A stretch of 20,074 bases of DNA from a virus. The notes beneath the pieces are model-generated. The model was given only the letters and a program-made list of their open reading frames with translations. It had not been told where the DNA came from and did no database searches. The position numbers and the translations under genes are program-made. Below are positions 8,311-19,511 of this stretch, in pieces (within the stretch, counting starts at the first letter, position 1; each line of letters begins with the position of its first letter). Location: positions 1-20,074 of the IMG/VR virus record IMGVR_UViG_3300025759_000934. One strand, given 5' to 3'.

Positions 8311-8604
8311 TTAAATAGTTGGAGAATCAATCTTTATTGTTGGTTCATATTCATTTATAATCTTAGTTGGCATAACTACTATATCATCTATTAACTCTAT
8401 CTTATTTCTTAATATGTCTGCATCACTAAATTTCTTTTCAACATCTATTCCTCTATAATCATATACTAAACTTCTAATACATATTTCTTTGTCTTTCTTT
8501 AGTTCATCAATTAAATATGCCCATCAATCAGAAGCCATTAGTGATTGCATTTTAGCTATCACTAATTGTTCTGGTGTTAATTCTGTTTGTTTTTTCTTTC
8601 ACAT
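8311..8604 (-). CDS. Conserved-type small protein between portal and scaffold
   Basis: 97 residues, charged and mostly helical, starting MGKKKQTELTPEQLVIAKMQ and ending in a short beta-like tail. Codon 2 is TGA, so only a cell that decodes TGA can make it. It starts 10 bases after the portal stop and is followed by a TAAGGAG sequence. No family is recognised. Position suggests a role in head assembly, such as a portal-associated or minor head protein, but nothing in the sequence proves this. Confidence 0.65.
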
Positions 8605-8614
8605 AGTTTTTTAA

Positions 8615-10516
8615 TTATTGTGTAGCAATATCTGCTAGACTAGCAGCTCATTGTTCTCATCACTGCATTATTTGAGCATTTGTAACTTGTGCAGCAGTTG
8701 CTCATAATACTCATCCTCATTGTTCTGGCTGTGCTTGTTGTATATTTTGTCAACTTAATATCATTGCATCCATTCTATCTCTTATAGCACTATCTCTTGC
8801 ATCTGTATCCATTGCTTTTCAATAGATAACAATATAACTCATGTGGTCCTCTTCAAGTTGTTCTATTTCTCAAACATCCATATTTCTATTAAGAAGTTCT
8901 AAATCTAACTTAGCTTTCATTTCTTCTATAGAAGCAGGAAATAATACTGAGATTTTATCTTTATCTATTCAATTAGCTCTTGCAATACTTCTTTTAGCAA
9001 ATGTTTTACTTATTTCTGGACTCTTAGGATCTTGAAGAACTAAATCAGCTATTACTAACAATCAAGCTTTTTCTTGCTCTTTCATAGATTCCTCATCACT
9101 TTTATTGATAACTTTAATATCAATATTAGCTCAAGTATCTATATCTTTTCTCTTAACTGATTGTATAACATTACCAAAAGAATTTTGAAGCATTATATTT
9201 TTTTCTCATTTGAAAGGGAAAAATTCATAATAAGCTCTTAACCAGTTTCTCCAAAAATCTTTTTCTCACCATTGATTAATCTTATTATTAAGAACTAACT
9301 TAACATTTTGATTTCTTTGGATTCTTTGATTCTCTGTAGCTGTTATACTCTTATCTGGTGTTCATCATACTGCTCTCTCATCTAATCACATATCATTAGA
9401 ACCTTGTTGTCTAATAACTTGTGCCATATTAAATGCATCTTGCTTGATTCTTCCTCTCTCTACTTCTCTGATAGGATTAGGATTCTTTCTTAAATCAGCT
9501 CTAACATATTTTGGTCATTGAGTATGTTGTCTTAAGTCATTTAGATTTTTAATTGCATCTGTATCTACTAAGAATGTATCTCACCAAGCTTCATGTTCTG
9601 CTTTAATTCTATTTAGATTTAAGAATAATTGTTCTATTCTTTGTTTATCTTCTAATAAGTCTGGAACACTTATACCAAATGGGTCTCATTTAAAAGGTTC
9701 ATAATGATTGACTATAACAGGAAATTTAATCAGATTAGGGTTTTTCTTTTCTTCTTCATAAACTGGTTTAATTTCTTCAAATCTTATTAATAAGCTGTCA
9801 TCATTAGCTAATGTCACTAAATATTTTTTACCTTTTATTGTTGTATAATGATTATATATTCAATAAATAGGTTGTTCATTTGTTTGTGGTGTTCATCAAT
9901 TTACTTGTCTTGATTGTTGTATTTGGTTTCTTCTTCTTTGTTCTCTATCTGAAACACTAGGTTTAACTTTATCTACATTAAAATATACATCTGTAGTTAA
10001 ATCTCAATCATTTATTTCTAATTCAAAACCATGAAATCTATAATTATCTATATATCATAAAGGGTCTGGAATCCAAGATATTGGGTCTATACTTCTATAA
10101 ACAGGAACATCTCTAACTGTATCCCGATAATCAAAGATTCTTAATCATACACCATAAAATAACCTATTCCATTGAACATCATAGGTTAGTTTTTCTAAAT
10201 CCATTTCTTCATAGTCGAATAAAGCTAGATTATTATAATTATCTGCTATCTCATCATCTCACAGTTGTCTTCAAGAGAAATTAACAGTTATTGCATCTGA
10301 ATAATAAAGACTCATTAAAGTTAACATAGTAGAGCGAATAGTCCTTACATATACTTTATCTGCTTTACCTCAATCTTCAGCTATATTAGTATATAGTTTT
10401 AATCTTTCTAAAAATAATTGTCTCTTTTGGTCTACAAAGTTAACTCACAGTTGTTTCTCTTGTTGTACTTGAGTTATTATTGCTGATTCATCAATAGGAA
10501 ATCTTGATTTAGGCAT
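8615..10516 (-). CDS. Portal protein
   Basis: 633 residues, a size and position (directly after the large terminase) typical of the dodecameric portal through which DNA is packaged and ejected. Recognisable features are an N-terminal helical region (ADKVYVRTIRSTMLTLMSLY), RSIDPISWIPDPLGYIDNYR in the wing/crown region, PFKGDPFGISVPDLLEDKQR followed by a long helix (RIEQLFLNLNRIKAEH), GGTPDKSITATENQRIQRNQ, and a Gln/Gly-rich tail. The PxGIS-PDLL-D-Q and TA-E-Q-R patterns match portals of podovirus-like phages. The C-terminal ~50 residues are low-complexity Gln/Ala/Gly. Most Gly are TGA. Confidence 0.88.
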
Positions 10517-11858: not shown

Positions 11859-12227
11859 TTAGTAAACTTTATTATTAATATCATCAAAAGCATTATATAA
11901 CTCTTTAGAAATTGTTTTTCAAGAGTGTGCATATAATGGATTGAAATATAATATTTTCTTACTATCTCACTTAAGTTTGAATTTCCCAATAAATCACTTT
12001 CTTTTTAAAAATGCCTCTAAACTTCTTTTGTTACTATCTGATATATTTATTCTATCTAGTGTAATTCTATTTTGTGAATCAAGAGTATCTTTTATTAAAC
12101 TTAAGTATCAATATTTTAATACTCATATATCATTAGCTATCTTCTCTGTATCTAACTCTACGTTTACTTTCATAAACTTATATTTTAGATTTATTAAATT
12201 AAATTTGTCATTTAAATAATTCTGCAT
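11859..12227 (-). CDS. Winged-helix-like protein; RepL-like or small terminase candidate
   Basis: 122 residues, first gene of the structural operon and directly before the large terminase. The C-terminal half (RSLEAFLKRKGFIGKFKLKG, then KILYFNPLYAHSGKTISKEL) looks like a winged helix followed by the 'NP...(S/K)G' element seen in plasmid replication/MarR-like RepL proteins. Position would instead suggest a small terminase subunit. A second helix-turn-helix protein at 12418-12789 competes for that role. Regulation of the late operon by autorepression is another possibility, since an inverted repeat overlaps its promoter start. DNA binding is likely; the exact role is not established. Confidence 0.6.
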
Positions 12228-12241
12228 ATAGTATCTTCAAG

Positions 12242-12263
12242 AGGTAAGTTTAGTCGCTTACCT
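12242..12263. repeat. Inverted repeat at the late promoter start site
   Basis: AGGTAAG (12242-12248) and CTTACCT (12257-12263) form a perfect 7-base inverted repeat with an 8-base spacer. It starts two bases after the -10 box of the minus-strand promoter and ends 15 bases before the ATG at 12227, so it covers the expected transcription start. It could be a repressor operator or a 5' RNA hairpin. Read on the plus strand it is followed by T-rich sequence, but no plus-strand gene leads into it. Confidence 0.6.
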
Positions 12264-12265
12264 TT

Positions 12266-12293
12266 ATTTTATACCTTTTTGTCTTGATGTCAA
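12266..12293 (-). promoter_or_regulatory. Strong promoter of the structural operon
   Basis: Minus-strand TTGACA (12293-12288, perfect -35) and TAAAAT (12271-12266) are 16 bases apart. The expected start is near 12259, inside the GTAAG/CTTAC inverted repeat. It lies just after a terminator (12347-12382), so it should be the main entry point for terminase, portal, scaffold and capsid expression. Confidence 0.75.
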
Positions 12294-12346
12294 AACATAA
12301 TTGTTTTACATTCAAGACTTTTTATATACTTCAATTTAAGCTATTC

Positions 12347-12382
12347 TAAAATAAAAAGTAGATAATTTTCAAAAAATCTACT
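12347..12382 (-). terminator. Intrinsic terminator ending the early gene cluster
   Basis: On the minus strand AGTAGAT (12382-12376) pairs with ATCTACT (12363-12357), followed by TTTTTATTTT. The 12-base loop is A/T only. It separates the helix-turn-helix gene from the late promoter. The remaining bases of 12228-12417 show nothing else. Confidence 0.75.
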
Positions 12383-12417
12383 CTATATCTTATAGATAAA
12401 TCATAACTTGTTATACT

Positions 12418-12789
12418 TTATAATTCAAAAGTAACTTTCACTTCTTTATCTGGGTTTTCCATAGCTTTAGTTAATTCATTTTGTCTAAATGCTAAATCTC
12501 TTGCTTTGGTTAATTCATCTAATCTAATCTTTCATTCTTCATCTGCTAACTTCTCTAATAGTTTTATTCAAGTTATATTAAGAATTTTATTATTATCATC
12601 TATGAGTTTTGTGATAGTTTCACTTTGTGTTGCAATTTGTTGCATATCATTCTTCAGTATTCTACTTGTTGTAGTATGTTCTACTCATGTTTGTTTTTCT
12701 ATATCTCTAGTTGATAAATCAGGGTTATTTAGTTTGGCTTCTATTACTTTAGCTTTATCTTCAGAAGATGTTGTTTTTCATCTAGGCAT
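12418..12789 (-). CDS. Helix-turn-helix protein, probable small terminase subunit
   Basis: 123 residues. Residues ~10-47 are a helix-turn-helix (EDKAKVIEAKLNNPDLSTRD, then QTGVEHTTTSRILKND; the Gly before Val is TGA). The rest is two long helices and a C-terminal beta tail, NPDKEVKVTFEL. This order, with an N-terminal DNA-binding domain, helical oligomerisation core and short C-terminal strand, is typical of phage small terminase subunits that recognise packaging sites. Unusually, it is separated from the large terminase by a terminator, a promoter and another gene. It could also be a transcriptional regulator. The gene starts 3 bases after the preceding stop. Confidence 0.65.
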
Positions 12790-12792
12790 AAT

Positions 12793-13164
12793 TTATTTCT
12801 TAAAATAATTATTAATCTTTCATACTACAAATTGCTCTGTTTCTTTACTAAGCATTTCTTGGTATTCTTTTAACATATCTTCATGTTTTTCTCTAATAGG
12901 TTTAGTAGCTTCTTCTAATTCTTCATGGTATTGCTTTATAGGCTCAACATAATCTTTCTTTTTATCTGCTATGTATTTTTCATATTCTAAGTTAGTAAGA
13001 GGAATAGTATATTTTTTTCTTCAAACCTTATATATGAATGTCATATCTCAGTTAGATTTAGTTTGTGAGCTTATATTCTTTGCTTCAGGTTCATTAGTTT
13101 TAATGGTTTCCATAACATAGTTATCTTTAAAATCATCTGAAGAATGTGGTTTAGGTGTTGGCAT
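12793..13164 (-). CDS. Charged coiled-coil protein of unknown function
   Basis: 123 residues with no recognised family. After an N-terminal segment with a short beta motif (MTFIYKVGRKKYTIPLTN), residues ~65-115 are a highly charged continuous helix (KKDYVEPIKQYHEELEEATK and on), probably coiled coil. It has one of the few clear Shine-Dalgarno sites in the window, AAAAAGGA five bases before the ATG at 13164, preceded by a strong inverted repeat. It lies 3 bases upstream of the small-terminase candidate and is probably co-expressed with it. Confidence 0.65.
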
Positions 13165-13185
13165 AGTATCCTTTTTATATAATAA

Positions 13186-13253
13186 ATTCTAATACATAAG
13201 ATGAAAAGGAGATAAACACCATTATGTATTAGAATCTACCATATAAGGTAGAT
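13186..13253 (-). promoter_or_regulatory. Structured leader: two adjacent hairpins
   Basis: A perfect 14-base inverted repeat (13186-13199 with 13222-13235) with a 22-base loop sits 22 bases upstream of the ATG at 13164. Next to it is a 7-base hairpin, ATCTACC (13234-13240) with GGTAGAT (13247-13253); they share two bases, so the two stems can compete. In the minus-strand RNA the big loop contains CTCCTTTT, complementary to the AAAAGG of the ribosome-binding site downstream, so a loop-RBS pairing (pseudoknot) that controls translation is possible. A TATACT box lies just upstream of the small hairpin. Confidence 0.55.
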
Positions 13254-13290
13254 AATAGTATATTAAAATAGTTTTAAGACTTATTTAGGT

Positions 13291-13518
13291 CTATTCTTCT
13301 TTATGTTTTTCTATTAAACCTTTTAAGTACTTTGTGTAAAACTCTTTTTCTTTTCATATAAAAGTAATATCTTCTAACTGTGTGATACTTATAGAGAATT
13401 TTGTAGAAGTAGTGAATATATAATAATAAATACTTTCTCATACAGGTATTCAATATGATAAACCTATATGCTCTACTTCTTGTTTAATAGCAATAATATA
13501 ATCTGTATTAAGTATCAT
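13291..13518 (-). CDS. Small protein of unknown function
   Basis: 75 residues, beta-rich at the start with aromatic residues (LSYGIPVGESIYYYIFTTST), then a charged helix. Three TGA codons read as Gly. No membrane segment or motif is recognised. Its ATG lies 2 bases after the stop of the next upstream gene, so it belongs to the same operon. Confidence 0.55.
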
Positions 13519-13520
13519 AA

Positions 13521-13703
13521 TTAAAACTTATCTTTCTTATCAAGTAAAGTAAAAGTATTCTTAGAAGTGTTGTATGTATTCATTCTAATAGTATCAAGTT
13601 TGTCTATCATTTCTAATTGTTGGTTAGATATTTCAGCATTACTTTTTACTATTTGTTGTAGGTTTTCTATTATTTCTTTTAATAGGTTTGTTATCTTAAG
13701 CAT
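13521..13703 (-). CDS. 60-residue coiled-coil protein
   Basis: A single amphipathic helix with heptad-like Leu/Ile spacing (LLKEIIENLQQIVKSNAEIS) covers most of the protein. It contains no glycine and hence no TGA, so it is intact in either code. Function unknown. Small coiled-coil proteins of this type are common among phage genes of unknown role. The ATG overlaps a TATAAT sequence, which I consider coincidental. Confidence 0.55.
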   Translation of the reverse strand: MLKITNLLKEIIENLQQIVKSNAEISNQQLEMIDKLDTIRMNTYNTSKNTFTLLDKKDKF

Positions 13704-13733
13704 TATACATAAATTAAAAAATAAATCAAGTTT

Positions 13734-13994
13734 TTATGCGTAACTAATATTACCACTAGACTTTACAAAAGGCACTAGAGGTTGTGCTAATTCTAGGGCA
13801 TCTTGTTCTTCTAGGAAATCAAGAGATTCTTTTCCTTTAGCTTTGATTGTTTTAATATCTTCTTCAGATATAGATAATCAATGTTCAGCTTGTAGTCTTA
13901 CCTGATCAATTAGGTTTACAGTCTCTTCATCAAGAACATATTGGTATATATGATTGATAACAGAGATATCATCTGTTTCTATATGTGTTTTCAT
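13734..13994 (-). CDS. Small acidic protein of unknown function
   Basis: 86 residues, mostly helical and acidic (SVINHIYQYVLDEETVNLID, later ISEEDIKTIKAKGKESLDFL). One TGA read as Gly. No family recognised. It begins 9 bases after the stop of the zinc-ribbon ORF and is part of the same gene run. Confidence 0.55.
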
Positions 13995-14003
13995 AGGTTA
14001 TTC

Positions 14004-14174
14004 TTATATAGGTAAAGTACAGTCACATTTATAGCAATATCTCTTATCTGTCTCTGGGTCATATTCTACATCCTTTGTATTAATCACTTCTCAACACTTG
14101 TGACAATATAGTTGTCATAATTTAAGTGTGGAGTCTAAATCACTGACACCATTTCTAAAATCTTGTCTAGTTGT
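14004..14174 (-). other. Zinc-ribbon reading frame without a start codon
   Basis: This frame is open from 14174 to a TAA at 14004-14006. It ends with a clear zinc ribbon: LYCHKCGEVINTKDVEYDP and then RYCYKCDCTLPI, two CxxC pairs about 23 residues apart, the Gly being TGA. No ATG, GTG, TTG or ATT/ATA/ATC/CTG codon occurs in frame before the first Cys. The frame is -1 relative to the exonuclease gene, whose end it overlaps by about 40 bases. It may be made by frameshifting from the exonuclease, giving an exonuclease-zinc-ribbon fusion, by an unknown initiation mode, or reflect a one-base sequence error. No canonical slippery heptamer is visible. Confidence 0.5.
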
Positions 14175-14752
14175 TTATTTGTTTCTATAGTTTCTTTTTC
14201 TATTTTCTCATAGCACATTTTTATAATCCTTGCATCAAATAAAGAATTATGTTTCTCTTCTTCTCAAAACCATGATTCTTCTCATTCTTTTACAAACTCT
14301 TCTCTTGATATATCAGCATCAATTCACTTTATCTTAAATAAAGTACAAATATCAAAAGGAATGTAATACACATTTTCTGGTAGCTGAGGATATCAATCAG
14401 AATAATTAGATAATAAGGTATTAAATAGTACCCAATCATAACTTAGACAATCACTCCATATTTCAATGTATTCAAAATCTCCTAACCATTCAAGAAGTTC
14501 ATATTGTATATAAGCAGTATCTCCTTTTACAGTTGTTTCTTTATCTGATTTTATATTACATCATTCTCAACTAATAATAAGTTTATTTATTACATTCTCT
14601 TTTATCCAATCATTAACTTGATTTTTATTATAATCAGTAAACTCAGCATAAAATGTTTTTCAACATTCCGAAATTAATCAAATAGAAATTAATGTTGTAT
14701 TTTGATGTAATCAAGTAAATTCACAATCAAAAAAAATTTTAGTTGTTTTCAT
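14135..14752 (-). CDS. 3'-5' exonuclease, Rv2179c/RNase T-like DEDDh family
   Basis: 205 residues. The N-terminus [20 protein letters not shown] carries the Exo I acidic pair (Asp9, Glu11); GKTFYAEFTDY follows. SDCLSYDWVLFN supplies a motif II Asp, and the HNSLFDAR block (His168, Asp173) is motif III of DEDDh exonucleases. The overall pattern fits the 3'-5' exoribonuclease family typified by mycobacterial Rv2179c. Such enzymes trim RNA or DNA 3' ends; in a phage they could act in RNA turnover or nucleotide scavenging (inference). Gly in TGLH and SIGL is TGA, matching the family consensus. A zinc-ribbon frame overlaps its 3' end. Confidence 0.85.
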
Positions 14753-14779
14753 ATTCTTTTCTTTAAATATTAATATAAA

Positions 14780-14941
14780 TTAGTCAATAGGTCTTTTTTC
14801 TACATAATCCTTTGCAAAATTGTATAAATAGGCTCTTTTTTCTTTTGTCCAATTCTCATTATTTAATTGTAATCTAGCAATTAATAAATCTTTATAATAG
14901 TTACTTAAATATTCAAATCTTGTATATTTTATTTCTTGCAT
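14780..14941 (-). CDS. 53-residue protein of unknown function
   Basis: Starts MQEIKYTRFEYLSNYYKDLL and ends VEKRPID. Two basic/aromatic helices; no glycine and no TGA. No family recognised. It lies 20 bases downstream of a neighbouring small gene in the same orientation. Confidence 0.5.
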   Translation of the reverse strand: MQEIKYTRFEYLSNYYKDLLIARLQLNNENWTKEKRAYLYNFAKDYVEKRPID

Positions 14942-14961
14942 AGGTTTTTAATTAATAATTA

Positions 14962-15153
14962 TTATTCTGCTCCTCTATTAACACTTTGCATTTTATAAGT
15001 AGTTATATCTGTTTTAAAGTGTTCTGTTTTTTCTGTGAACATAAAACATCAAGTGTTTACAAGTTGTTCTATACTACCATCATCTCATAATAATTCTTCT
15101 ATTGCTCTATCACTAGCTCATTCTAAATCTATTTCTATTATTATTTTTTTCAT
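14962..15153 (-). CDS. 63-residue protein of unknown function
   Basis: Starts MKKIIIEIDLEGASDRAIEE, with three TGA-encoded glycines. A beta strand leads into a helix, then a second beta segment (CFMFTEKTEHFKTDITTY). The size and fold pattern resemble other small phage early proteins, but nothing specific is recognised. Confidence 0.5.
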
Positions 15154-15176
15154 AAGTCTTTTTTAGTAATTAATAT

Positions 15177-15530
15177 TTATTTGTTTAATAACTCTGGGTT
15201 TTCATAGATATTTCAGATAACTGTTCTAAATTCACAATCACTCTTTTGGCATCATCATCCCATAGAGAATTGAGCCTCATCTTCATCCCATTCAACAATA
15301 TGTATATTTGTTGTATTATTTCCCCATTCTTCTTCATTAAATTCAATCACATCTCCTTCATATATTTCTTTTCAGTTCTTATCTTTTAAACCTGTAAATT
15401 GTAGTACCTTTCAGTTTTCATAATTATATTCTTCAGGGAATCATTCATATTCTAAATCTCAAATACTCCAAGAACAACTCATTGTTTTAGTTTCATTGTT
15501 CCAAAATTTAAATTTTATTTCTCTTTCCAT
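15177..15530 (-). CDS. YopX family protein
   Basis: 117 residues with the full YopX family layout: REIKFKFWNNETKTM at the start, then [20 protein letters not shown] (44-63), a central hydrophilic beta segment, and the terminal TVIGNIYENPELL. The glycines in [10 protein letters not shown] and IGNIYENP are TGA where the family has Gly, giving another independent check of the code. YopX proteins are common in phages and prophages of many bacteria; their function is not known. The gene begins 2 bases after the stop of the upstream gene. Confidence 0.9.
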
Positions 15531-15532
15531 AT

Positions 15533-15802
15533 TTATTTATTTGTGTTAGGAGTTAATAAACTTATTTTAAATTTCTTATAAAAATATGTTCTATTGAATA
15601 AGAAAAGAAAATAGTTCCATCTTCATACTAAATCTTTTATTTCTTTTTTAACTTGCTTTAGCTTAGTAAAATATAAAATTGATTCTTCTAAATCCTTTCT
15701 ATAACAAAAAGTATAGGCTCAATAAGGATTTGCATGGTTTAACTCTTCTAGCCTTCTTGTAATCTTTATATATTCTATTATTTTAGTACTTAATCATTTC
15801 AT
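15533..15802 (-). CDS. Basic small protein of unknown function
   Basis: 89 residues, Lys/Arg-rich and helical (KIIEYIKITRRLEELNHANP, then LVGRWNYFLFLFNRTYFYKK). The hydrophobic stretch FLFLF is too short to be a clear membrane segment. The third codon is TGA. No family recognised. It is translationally close to the YopX gene. Confidence 0.5.
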
Positions 15803-15814
15803 AACTATCTATTC

Positions 15815-15997
15815 TTATATAATAAAATTAACAACTTTGATTAATCATATTAAACATCATATGTGATATAAAGTTCATATTGTGCTAATAAGTGCAATTC
15901 CTCTTGAAGCTCAACTATTTATATCATATTTCAATGATTCTGTAGTAAACCATATATTCATATAATATAATCATACTATAGGTATTAATGTTTTCAT
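15815..15997 (-). CDS. Small membrane protein
   Basis: 60 residues. One hydrophobic segment lies near the start (TLIPIVGLYYMNIWF), and a second spans the C-terminal half (GIALISTIGTLYHIGCLIGL), so one or two membrane spans are likely. Short phage membrane proteins include holins, but there is no supporting neighbour here (no endolysin gene adjacent), so function is unassigned. Confidence 0.55.
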
Positions 15998-16036
15998 CTT
16001 TTCTATTTATTAAGTAATAATCTAAGTAACTGCTTG

Positions 16037-16312
16037 TTAATTAGTAAATAATCTTTCAAACCAACTTCTTTTATCTTGTATAACTTTTATACTTGTTCTT
16101 CACTTCCATTTTAGATTCTCTGGTATATGTTGAATACTCCATATTTCTAAGTATCAACTTCCTTTTACCTTAGTAAACTTGATTCAATATTGTTTCAATT
16201 GGTGTAAGTAACCTGAAAATCTCCATCAGGCTATTTTATTAAGTTCTCTATTACTTAAACATTTTGCTCTCTCAAAGGCTTCTAATATTTTTATTGCTCT
16301 TGATTTATACAT
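16037..16312 (-). CDS. Small basic protein, possible helix-turn-helix
   Basis: 91 residues. The N-terminal half (AIKILEAFERAKCLSNREL, then KIAGWRFSGYLHQLKQYGIK) has the spacing of a helix-turn-helix followed by a winged segment; the C-terminal half is a beta region ending FERLFTN. Net positive charge fits nucleic-acid binding. No named family is recognised. It follows a 78-base gap that contains a candidate promoter. Confidence 0.5.
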
Positions 16313-16345
16313 AAAATAATAATTAATAAATAAAGTGATGTATAT

Positions 16346-16374
16346 ATACTAACATAATGTTGTTTTTATTACAA
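16346..16374 (-). promoter_or_regulatory. Candidate promoter in the recombination cluster
   Basis: TTGTAA (16374-16369) and TAGTAT (16351-16346) are 17 bases apart on the minus strand in the only sizeable gap of this cluster. It would drive the small genes from 16312 leftward. Moderate match in an AT-rich background. Confidence 0.35.
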
Positions 16375-16390
16375 GATATTGCAATTGACT

Positions 16391-16807
16391 TTAGTGTGAA
16401 TAACTTTCTAGTAAACTTTGTATCTCTTTAGGACTGTATTTACAGGCAATCTTATTATCACAAATAAACTTCCAGATGGTTTCTATATAGAATATAGTTT
16501 CTTTCTTTGTTAATTCACTTGTAGTTGGTTTCTTTGGTACAACTGTATGGAACTTTCCCATACTCATAGGTTTAGCTCAAAAGCATCATATAAGGAAAAT
16601 TTGCTTTACCCTTTCAGGCTGTTCTCACATATGTTTAGAAATCTCACTACATAATCATCTCAACATTTTTCTTTGTGTGTGTTTTATCATTTCTTTAGTC
16701 TCTTTGTCTGAGATAATACATATTAATTGCTTATCTTCTGCTTGTCTTTCAAAGTATTCAGTTATTTCTTTAAGTATTTCAGATGATGTTCAAGTATATT
16801 TAGGCAT
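16391..16807 (-). CDS. Possible NinB-like recombination protein
   Basis: 138 residues. The layout, with an N-terminal beta/helix region, a basic helix (MIKHTQRKMLRGLCSEIS), GKFHTVVPKKPTTSELTKKE and a helical C-terminus (YIETIWKFICDN), resembles NinB/ORF-type phage recombination proteins, where an S-(T/E)-x-(L/M)-T-K-x-E motif leads into a final helix. The next gene upstream encodes an annealing protein, and RusA lies in the same region, so a recombination role is plausible. Sequence support is weak; an uncharacterised nuclease-like family is an alternative. It starts 2 bases after the Rad52-like gene. Confidence 0.45.
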
Positions 16808-16809
16808 AA

Positions 16810-17334
16810 TTATTTATTATCAATTTCTATATCTTTTATACTTTGTCTAACTTCTTTATTTACTTTATATTTTTCTGTTAGTTTAGTGATTATCTCATTT
16901 GCTGTCTTTCATTCTTTAATTTGTGCTGTAATTCTATCTATATGCTTATCAAAGTCATTATACCAAGGTAAGTTATCATCTGCAACCTTCTTTCCTGTAC
17001 TACTAGGCTTAATATTATATAGGAATCTTCATAAACCCCATACAACACAAGCTCTTTTAAATGAATCGGATATAGCTCACTTTTCTTTCTCTATATTGCT
17101 TTCAGAACCTCAATCCCACTTTGTAATCCATTCTCAGTCTAGTTTTATAGAAACTCAAGCAAATAGCTCTCATCTATGTTCTGCATATTCTACTTTCCAA
17201 TTTTCTATACCACACACTTCATCAAGTCTATCTTGTGCCTGCCTAGCATCAATATATGCTAACTCTTTACCTCAAGGTCAAACCCTTGTTTTGTAGTCCA
17301 TAGGTTCTGCTAGTTTTTTTAAATCTATCTTCAT
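16810..17334 (-). CDS. Rad52/22-like single-strand annealing protein
   Basis: 174 residues. The core matches the Rad52/Rad22 and DdrA-like annealing family: AYIDARQAQDRLDEVCGIEN (26-45), GVSIKLDGEWITKWDGG (60-76), EKEKGAISDSFKRACVVWGL (82-101) and GRFLYN. These proteins anneal complementary single strands and promote phage recombination. Gly in DGE, EKGAISD and GLGRF is TGA where the family has Gly. Nine of the 14 Gly codons are TGA. The C-terminal ~60 residues are a charged helical tail. A NinB-like protein follows and RusA lies upstream in the same orientation, which makes a compact recombination toolkit. Confidence 0.88.
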
Positions 17335-17356
17335 AATTACATATTATTAAAATAAT

Positions 17357-17785
17357 CTATTTTTTCTTAGGCGTATAACTGAGTATTTGACTGTTCTTTA
17401 CTTCAACAGGTTCTATTATCTCTCAATCTTCTGTTATAATGCTTTCTCAGTTATCTGTTGCAACTTTTACTAGTTTTTCAATCTTTTTCATTTCATCTAA
17501 TTTTTCAGCTATTTGTAATTCTTCATATTTAGAGTTGTAATAAGCATTAGATTTTATATCATAAGTCTTTCTAATAGATATTCTAAATTCTTTATATTCT
17601 AATGGACTTTCTTCAACCATATCTCTAGTTTGATTCTCAATAAGTTTCAAAGCATTTTTAATAGTTCACTCAAAACTCCTAAGATATTTATAAGCTACAA
17701 TAGGGGATATTTCTCCATTTTCTATATCTAATAGTAAATCATTAATACTTAAAACTGATTTTTCTATATCTTGTAATTTTCACAT
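17357..17785 (-). CDS. Helical protein upstream of the annealing gene
   Basis: 142 residues, mostly one long charged helix (residues ~50-105), ending with a short acidic linker and a basic tail, LSYTPKKK. Codon 2 is TGA (MGKLQDIEKS). The location just before a single-strand annealing gene and the coiled-coil layout are reminiscent of Gp157-like or nuclease-inhibitor proteins of phages, but no diagnostic motif is present. Function unknown. Confidence 0.55.
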
Positions 17786-17793
17786 AATTATTT

Positions 17794-17982
17794 TTAGTTA
17801 GTAATAAAATTCTCATATAACATATCAAACAATTCTCAACTGTCTTTAACTAGCCAAGTATGTTTTTTATCCATTAAAGTAAATATATCTCAATTATCTA
17901 TTTCTGTAACTTCATAATCTAGTATAGTATCTCATACCTTTAGATCATCTATTGTATTTTTAATTTCTTTGTTTATTGTCAT
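17794..17982 (-). CDS. 62-residue protein, first gene of the recombination operon
   Basis: A compact beta-type domain: TIDDLKVGDTILDYEVTEID followed by IFTLMDKKHTWLVKD, resembling small SH3-like or beta-barrel folds in phage early genes. Three or four glycines are TGA. It is the first gene after the control region at 18000-18130. No named family. Confidence 0.5.
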
Positions 17983-18000
17983 AATATATAATATAAAGAA

Positions 18001-18029
18001 ATAATAGTTATATGGTCTTATGTTGTCAC
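18001..18029 (-). promoter_or_regulatory. Candidate promoter just upstream of 17982 gene
   Basis: GTGACA (18029-18024) and TATTAT (18006-18001) are 17 bases apart on the minus strand. It lies downstream of the hairpin at 18041-18096, so it would escape that terminator and give a short leader. Confidence 0.45.
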
Positions 18030-18040
18030 AGTGTTCCATA

Positions 18041-18096
18041 TATAATAAAAAGTAAGTTGTTTAATAGTTTTTTAGTTAACTATTTTGTAACTTACT
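18041..18096 (-). terminator. Intrinsic terminator or attenuator
   Basis: On the minus strand AGTAAGTT (18096-18089) pairs with AACTTACT (18058-18051), and inside it AATAGTT (18084-18078) pairs with AACTATT (18069-18063). A T-rich run, TTTTTATTATA, follows. It sits after the ribbon-helix-helix gene but also begins right at the expected start of the strong promoter at 18100-18128, so it may both end the upstream gene and attenuate that promoter. Confidence 0.7.
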
Positions 18097-18099
18097 CTT

Positions 18100-18128
18100 A
18101 TTGTACTCTTTTTTATTCTTAATGTCAA
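18100..18128 (-). promoter_or_regulatory. Strong promoter upstream of the hairpin
   Basis: A perfect TTGACA (18128-18123) and TACAAT (18105-18100) with the ideal 17-base spacing on the minus strand. The start is expected near 18093, inside the 5' arm of the terminator-like hairpin. The first transcribed bases include GTAAG, as at the late promoter. Confidence 0.75.
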
Positions 18129-18165
18129 ATCTTTTTTGGACTTTTTTAAATCCTCTCTGGACTTA

Positions 18166-18303
18166 TTATAAATTATGTACCCTCTCAAATTCTTCTAATA
18201 CTCTACTTAAAGCTCTTTTTCTACTTCACATATTAAAATATATCTTTGCTTTATTTAAAATGGCATATTCTTTTTCTGTTATTAAAACTCTTGTATCTTT
18301 CAT
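18166..18303 (-). CDS. Ribbon-helix-helix regulator (Arc-like)
   Basis: 45 residues: a short strand (TRVLIT), helix 1 (EKEYAILNKAKIYFN), a Gly turn (TGA-encoded) and helix 2 (SRKRALSRVLEEFERV). This is the minimal ribbon-helix-helix fold of Arc/CopG/MetJ-type dimeric repressors, in which the strand inserts into the DNA major groove. It lies between two promoters and just upstream of a terminator, a typical position for a phage transcription switch. Its targets are unknown; the GTAAG/CTTAC inverted repeats are candidates. Confidence 0.65.
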
Positions 18304-18368: not shown

Positions 18369-18893
18369 TTACATATAGAAATTCCTGACTAATTCTAATT
18401 GCCTTACTTTCTCCTTCCATTTATCATACTCTTGTAAATTATTTTTTGGTTTATCTATATCTTCAAACGGCAAATACACCTCTTTATTATTAATAATTAA
18501 CTTTAAACAGGGTAATCAATTCTTTAATCTTCTTTCTGCTTTTCTTAATATACTAATTCTTTCAGAATTATTTTTATACCATTCTTGTTTTTGTAATCGT
18601 TTTTCTTCTATAGTTTTATGAGTTTTAGGTCAAAATGGTTTATGTGATTTCTTTTCTAAATACATAAGTATTCTTGTTTTATAATAATGTTTCCACATAG
18701 CTTTAAATCTAACTACTTTCCTATTTGCCTTTTTGCTTCTTTCTTTATCCCAACAACTAGTACATAATCATCTTCCTTTATGTTTAAAATTACAAGTTTT
18801 ACACTGTTGACAAAAATCAAACTTGTAACTCCATTTATACTTTCAATTAGTTTGTTTAAAAAGTGTTCAAGTATGTCAATATTTCTTAGTCAT
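18369..18893 (-). CDS. Zinc-ribbon protein of unknown function
   Basis: 174 residues. A four-Cys zinc-binding module lies at 28-47: CQQC, a spacer with KHKGRGLC, then CTSCW, matching small 'C-x2-C ... G-(K/R)-G-L-C-x2-C' domains of HNH-associated and other phage proteins. The rest is very basic and helical (KVVRFKAMWKHYYKTRILMY, later ERLQKQ-like segments), consistent with nucleic-acid binding. No HNH catalytic histidines are visible, so a nuclease role is not supported. Its ATG overlaps the end of the RusA gene by 8 bases (ATGACTAA), so the two are probably translated together. Confidence 0.65.
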
Positions 18894-19254
18894 TTATATA
18901 TTCTTTAATTTCTATTTCTATTCTAGGTTTCTCTTTATCATAAAACTTTTCTACTGTTTGTTTCTGTATTTGGTTATCATCTTCCCAAACTATTCAAGAA
19001 AGAGAATCAAGAAGGATTTTAGAATAGTTGTCTATATCATGTTTTCTATGAGAATCAAAATATATTTTTATGTATGTTTCTATATCTCACATAAATTTAT
19101 CATATCACAAAAACTGTGAATATGCACACATTTTATATGTTTCTTTTAAATCTTTTCACTTCTTAGTCATATAGACTGTTGGGAATCTTCATCTACAAGT
19201 ATGCTTATATAGATGATTAGTAGACTCAGGCTTTCAAGGTAGTGTTATTTTCAT
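18886..19254 (-). CDS. rusA: RusA-type Holliday junction resolvase
   Basis: 122 residues. The diagnostic RusA core is RKHDIDNYSKILLDSLSG (70-87) followed by IVWEDDNQI (88-96), giving the metal-binding Asp73, Asp75 and Asp92/93 and a nearby Lys79. The family pattern also shows at both ends: LPGKPESTNHLY at the start and EKPRIEIEI near the end. RusA dimers cut four-way DNA junctions made during recombination and replication. All six glycines are TGA, including the conserved SGIVWEDD. The start ATG 19254 overlaps the end of the HNH gene by 10 bases. Confidence 0.92.
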
Positions 19255-19511
19255 AGTTTTTCTAAATAATTAATACAATCTTGCCTTATGCCTTGTCATT
19301 TACTACAAGAATGACATTCTCTATGATGATCAGCACAAATAGTTACTCACATTTCTACATTATTTCTATCTTTAGTATAAATACTTTGAGTACCAAAATA
19401 TACATGATGAAATTGTAAGTTTATATTTACTCAGCATATTATACAACACTTATTATCTCTTTCATATATAGCTTCTTTTGTTTTATTACGAAACTTTGCT
19501 TTATGCTTCAT
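19245..19511 (-). CDS. HNH endonuclease-type protein
   Basis: 88 residues. IYERDNKCCIICG (15-27) supplies a Cys pair, then QFHHVYFG (His35/His36), DRNN (Asn50/51) and ICADHHRECHS (His62/63, His67), ending GIRQDCINYL. This is an HNH nuclease pattern of the small phage type, with C-x2-C zinc ligands. Such enzymes cut DNA; roles range from packaging to homing. Reading TGA as Gly extends the protein by Gly-Lys past a TGA that lies inside the downstream ATGA, exactly where a standard-code phage would have stopped. Confidence 0.8.

Follow-up and report, generated by a model that had tools for sequence, protein, structure and literature searches.

Two strong promoters of a code-25 phage share a start-site motif and may be under separate local control

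We investigated the two promoters, here called P1 and P2, that stand out in a stretch of viral DNA, IMGVR_UViG_3300025759_000934, which is a complete IMG/VR record, 20,074 bases long and with a G+C content of 27.8% (hereafter the window). Both are followed by an inverted repeat of the form GTAAG...CTTAC, which a preliminary description had read as a common operator for one phage repressor, or a common 5' RNA hairpin, linking early and late transcription. Our analysis favors a different reading, for which we see about an even chance: P1 would be controlled through operators of its own, probably as an autoregulated promoter of the 122-amino-acid (122-aa) gene behind it, and P2 would be separate, its repeat serving as a terminator or hairpin. 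Judged by its sequence, the region's best operator candidate, stronger than the start-site dyad, is a pair of dyads at P1 (O1 and O2) that was missing from the preliminary description, and the focus moves from the GTAAG motif to this pair over the -35 box. The features concerned are:

12266-12293, minus strand: promoter P1, TTGACA-N16-TAAAAT, sigma-70 match 11/12.
18100-18128, minus strand: promoter P2, TTGACA-N17-TACAAT, sigma-70 match 11/12.
12242-12263, minus strand: P1 start-site dyad, AGGTAAG-N8-CTTACCT, perfect over 7 bp, reaching from about -4 to about +18 relative to the predicted start.
18047-18099, minus strand: P2 start-site inverted repeat, AAGAGTAAGTT...AACTTACTTTTT, with a nested hairpin (18083-18064) and a U-tract, seen in the sequence and by folding.
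12303-12318, minus strand: O1, upstream operator-like dyad, GTCTT-GAATGT-AAAAC (GTCTTGAATGTAAAAC), from the sequence and comparison with the related phage L313.
12281-12296, minus strand: O2, operator-like dyad over the -35 box, GTTTT-GACATC-AAGAC (GTTTTGACATCAAGAC), from the same evidence.
11859-12227, minus strand: 122-aa gene, directly downstream of P1 and before the gene for the terminase large subunit (TerL), with an orthologue in L313.

P1 and P2 are the two best sigma-70-type matches of the window, which bears out their description as strong promoters with perfect TTGACA boxes. Both are intergenic, lying between minus-strand genes and on the coding strand, and combine TTGACA and a spacer of 16 (P1) or 17 bp (P2) with a TATAAT-like -10 box. 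On the minus strand, the -10 box is followed by AAAGGTAAG at P1 and AAGAGTAAG at P2, and in both GTAAG stands 4 nt past the box and is closed by CTTAC. The start-site repeats are thus present as described, with a spacer between GTAAG and CTTAC of 8 bp at P1 vs 34 bp at P2 (a difference of 26 bp); the P2 repeat reads GTAAGTT-(30 nt, with nested ATAGTT...AACTAT)-AACTTAC, then TTTTT.

The strongest evidence for control at P1 comes from O1 and O2, two 16-bp dyads of the pattern GTYTT-N6-AARAC that lie 22 bp apart. By chance, 34 kb should contain 0.15 exact single O sites, and the pair was found in 0 of 60 shuffled genomes. The phage has a single copy of the pair, and so does L313 (IMGVR_UViG_3300024520_001002, one of the closer relatives found by a capsid-protein search); in each it covers the -35 box of the 122-aa gene, and it was found neither in the relative G311 nor in a 1.5-Mb genome of the host class. 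In L313, the orthologous promoter (TTGACT-N16-TAAAAT, at 2378) carries GTCTT-AAGGCT-AAGAC (GTCTTAAGGCTAAGAC) as O1 and GTCTT-GACTTT-AAGAC (GTCTTGACTTTAAGAC) as O2, with the 22-bp spacing kept. The outer arms (left in O1, right in O2) are complementary in both phages through double changes (GTCTTGA/TCAAGAC vs GTCTTAA/TTAAGAC, G-C to A-T), as are the inner arms (AAAAC/GTTTT vs AAGAC/GTCTT, A-T to G-C). The start-site dyad is partly kept at the same offset (ATAAG-N9-CTTAT); here, too, A-T replaces one G-C pair in a compensatory manner, and more mismatches lie outside the dyad. Behind this promoter stands the orthologue of the 122-aa gene, with 67% identity. Because this gene and its promoter are kept while the terminase of L313 differs from that of the window phage, promoter and gene behave as a unit, and at P1 symmetric sites over a promoter are conserved together with the adjacent gene in one relative. 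Among other relatives, the promoter was not found near TerL in the TerL relatives L005 and L016, and G311 has neither the 122-aa gene nor the P1 and P2 promoters; when compared with isolated phages by BLASTN, the regions of P1 and P2 gave only matches at E 0.1-0.4. The earlier idea of promoter-linked regulation is supported for P1, where O1/O2 and the start-site dyad are retained in L313 with compensatory changes, and is not supported as a single operator shared with P2.

From these sequences and positions we infer that P1 and P2 would both be read by the host RNA polymerase (sigma-70-type), each under the control of sequences local to it. A dimer or tetramer of a protein would bind O1/O2 over the -35 box, perhaps also the start-site dyad, and would probably shut P1. 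The most likely binder would be the product of the operon's first gene, the 122-aa protein, in which case the late operon (terminase, portal, capsid) would be autoregulated. Known examples of autoregulated repressor promoters whose operators come in pairs, two helical turns apart, are the lambda/P22-type OR/OL, TetR-type and toxin-antitoxin operons. P1 resembles them in its two dyads, which are spaced by about 22 bp and overlap the -35 box, in the small gene directly downstream and in the dyad over the start; unlike in those systems, the downstream protein has no recognizable family and binding is predicted. A local conserved operator cassette is likely, and as a switch it would be ordinary in kind and new in its setting.

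GT|AAG is the sole pyrimidine-purine step at the usual distance, with T(-1)A(+1) 7 nt past the -10 box at both promoters, and the predicted start falls within the left arm of both repeats. A complete P1 hairpin would thus be missing from P1's own RNA: the fold is worth 0 kcal/mol from the predicted +1, and -7.7 kcal/mol with the whole left arm. If the predicted start holds, the P1 dyad would act as DNA or not at all. For this reason the idea of a common 5'-terminal RNA hairpin that protects or regulates both transcripts is disfavored, and we regard it as very improbable, even though both full arms fold well and P2 RNA from its predicted +1 still forms a shortened hairpin (-6.1 kcal/mol); the L313 orthologue of P1 is likewise unstructured from the predicted +1 (0 kcal/mol), and other well-matched intergenic promoters of the phage do without a strong start-site repeat.

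At P2, we propose that the nested repeat and its U-tract most likely end transcripts coming from the upstream operon, and that P2's own RNA, beginning in the left arm, would form the shortened hairpin only and read on. The repeat, which is intergenic, folds at -12.3 to -14.3 kcal/mol (-12.3 with TTTATTATAT after the stem), and it combines a stable stem with a U-tract on the transcribed strand, so that an intrinsic terminator is predicted. Where one phage operon follows another, the terminator and the next promoter can overlap. P2 is like these in that a hairpin with a U-tract holds the next start site in its left arm, and differs from the typical case in its very A/T-rich, nested stem and in that termination is predicted. 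An operator of P2, if there is one, would be a repeat spaced by 21 bp upstream of its -35 box. Three further features belong here:

18127-18164, minus strand: 17-bp element in two tandem copies, AAGTCCAGAGAGGATTT / AAGTCCAAAAAAGATTT, which agree at 14/17 positions and are spaced by 21 bp; they precede the P2 -35 box, and the probability of such a repeat arising by chance within 70 nt is about 0.001.
18166-18303, minus strand: 45-aa gene with a ribbon-helix-helix-like pattern, just upstream of P2.
12348-12382, minus strand: terminator-like hairpin AGTAGAT...ATCTACT-TTTTATTTT, with an A/T-rich stem, closing the operon upstream of P1, seen directly.

Overlap between promoters and hairpins may be a frequent feature of this phage. 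In contig L136 of a second record of the phage (G001, see below), a terminator-like hairpin (AAAGTCAAA...TTTGACTTT) contains in its right arm the TTGACT -35 box of a promoter at ~9561, and a promoter at ~10634 is followed by ACATTA-GAAA-TAATGT at the predicted start.

Several points weigh against our reading of P1 and P2. The P1 module is carried by only one independent relative (L313), and no relative covering P2 turned up among the relatives found. The 122-aa protein has no match in Pfam, PHROG or PDB, and its role as regulator is suggested by its position only. In addition, T-runs follow both O1/O2 and the start-site dyad of P1 on the plus strand, where they could mark terminators of antisense transcription, and the likeness of P1 and P2 outside the hexamers (22 of 33 positions identical, P ~4e-5 to 9e-5) also fits a shared regulator or promoter class.

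The antisense point leads to an alternative in which the dyads are all terminators, with the one at P2 ending the upstream operon (coding strand) and the two hairpins at P1 ending antisense transcription (plus strand). On the minus strand, the P2 hairpin does have a U-tract after it, as do both P1 hairpins on the plus strand. However, the plus strand has no genes, the 22-bp register of O1/O2 would be needless for a terminator, and terminator-like hairpins were as frequent on the antisense strand in the same scan (35 vs 25), so a hairpin scan alone is weak evidence. We consider this alternative quite unlikely.

The likeness of the two promoters raises the possibility that one phage regulator, acting on a common element, coordinates early and late transcription; the element might then be TTGACATYAAGA over the -35 box rather than GTAAG. 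In favor of this are the matches outside the hexamers, the same arm at the same offset, and the similarity of GATTTGACATTAAGAA at P2 to O2 (GTTTTGACATCAAGAC) at P1. On the other hand, the symmetry of this O2-like site at P2 is poor, O1 is missing there and with it the O1/O2 pair, and the GTAAG core itself is altered in L313. With arm spacings of 8 vs 34 bp, one dimer could not bind both repeats alike. Nor does the element recur: a search of the 34.45-kb genome gave no third promoter copy, and the only other GTAAG...CTTAC lies within a gene. Judged by the refuting condition given in the preliminary description, the outcome is divided: there is no promoter copy elsewhere in G001/G002 or in G311, and L313 has a modified form at P1 only. 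The proposal of a common operator for one repressor, as first made, is not supported, and we hold a shared regulator of any kind to be unlikely.

Could the shared motif be coincidence combined with a start-site preference, such that only the individual promoters matter? By itself, GTAAG-N0-30-CTTAC is expected 0.54 times per window, so a single match says little. Under a dinucleotide model, the background p of a start-site repeat is ~0.009 at each of P1 and P2, and a strong start-site repeat occurs only at these two of the 11 intergenic promoter-like sites of the phage, the other 9 falling short. The probability of a shared 5-bp arm at the same offset with both repeats closing ranges from ~4e-6, when only arms having two or more G/C are counted, to 2.6e-4, when every arm is allowed, computed for a feature picked post hoc, after looking. 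A start-site preference for T(-1)A(+1), always equally far from the -10 box, would account for part of the shared GTAAG. Other arms also follow promoters in other phages, and GTAAG repeats follow promoters in unrelated phages and bacteria, often one per genome. We nevertheless find this explanation doubtful, given a joint probability of at most 2.6e-4 and the partial conservation in L313.

We scanned viral and bacterial collections for the exact arrangement of promoter and GTAAG...CTTAC, with controls run in the viral collection. TTGACA-N-TANAAT-N4-GTAAG...CTTAC was found in 44 viral stretches (~20 independent), 9 unrelated ones having stems of at least 7 bp. The controls gave 11 matches for a non-complementary arm, 29 for GAATG/CATTC (no short-loop long stem) and 9 for GAAGT/ACTTC (3 independent long stems). 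We rejected recurrence in unrelated phages as a sign of a shared regulator: controls also match, the GTAAG excess is mild, and there is usually one copy per genome. Repeats at the start site are a general architecture, and different proteins use this place as a typical operator position. A host regulon was likewise rejected, the motif being present in 2 of 288 SR1/Gracilibacteria-class genomes.

Among the bacterial cases, ~19 of 53 precede MazE/AbrB-type antitoxin genes (by eye); PF04014 was matched by 4 of 5 tested representatives, and the fifth, which represents another group of five similar loci, had no match. As at P1, TTGACA-N16-18-TANAAT-N4-GTAAG...CTTAC straddles the start at these antitoxin promoters (loop N6-12), presumably as an autoregulatory operator. 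Unlike in the phage, the dyad often takes in the -10 box: in MazE/AbrB-like loci of Nitrospirae, Deltaproteobacteria and others (L225, L228, L231, L233, L246, L247, L254, L261, L265, L268, L269, L273 and L276), the -10 box and start lie within CCTTACAAT-N4-GTAAGG...CCTTAC, by its sequence likely an autoregulatory operator. The phage has no PF04014 protein, and an AbrB/MazE-type regulator was rejected, with no PF04014 match at E up to 1 in the phage, G311 or G312.

The two small flanking genes were also modeled. The 122-aa protein gave a helix-helix-helix-strand-strand order at a predicted local distance difference test (pLDDT) score of 38, winged-helix-like by element order only, and the model is unusable. 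The 45-aa protein gave two helices at a mean pLDDT of 91.8, a model compatible with a ribbon-helix-helix protein, with no fold match and no family match. In L324, a contig of an SR1/Gracilibacteria-class genome, a terminase-like gene is preceded by a distant relative of the 122-aa protein (E 0.001) and lies near a gene resembling window 18369-18893; this arrangement hints at the host class and at a conserved gene position.

Long open frames occur in the window on the minus strand only, and only with TGA read as glycine (code 25), a code known from Absconditabacteria and Gracilibacteria (PMC10746230). In that study of phages of TGA=Gly bacteria, the word 'promoter' is absent from the main text. 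Little seems known about transcription control in phages of these hosts, for which the P1 cassette would offer a concrete, small and testable unit of promoter, operator and protein. We speculate, tentatively, that promoter, O1/O2, start-site dyad and 122-aa protein together make up a mobile switch for late transcription in code-25 phages, controlled by a DNA-binding protein family not yet described; if so, a cis-regulatory cassette stays intact while the surrounding terminase genes are exchanged.

Two further records, IMGVR_UViG_3300006916_000207 (G001) and IMGVR_UViG_3300006919_012066 (G002), are at least 99.9% identical to the window phage and represent the same phage; their overlaps with the window join into a circle of ~34,453 bases, one strand of which carries all genes. 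No lysogeny genes were recognized among the listed open reading frames, although no systematic search was made, and an Rfam scan of the window and of L136 gave no match. The window carries a recombination cluster (19245-19511, 18886-19254, 16810-17334 and 16391-16807) with an HNH-like gene and a RusA-like resolvase (by eye), a Rad52/Erf-like annealing protein (Pfam and PHROG matches) and a NinB-like gene (PHROG match). In L136, an 856-bp region without a good gene (8506-9361) has several promoter-like sites, a core richer in G+C (8945-9190), no Rfam match and a folding energy that is not unusual (z -1.2). Finally, a 24-bp tandem repeat (L136, 12840-13307) within a 501-aa gene (12040-13545) encodes 8-residue repeats such as SAGNYAKV and SAEDYAKV.

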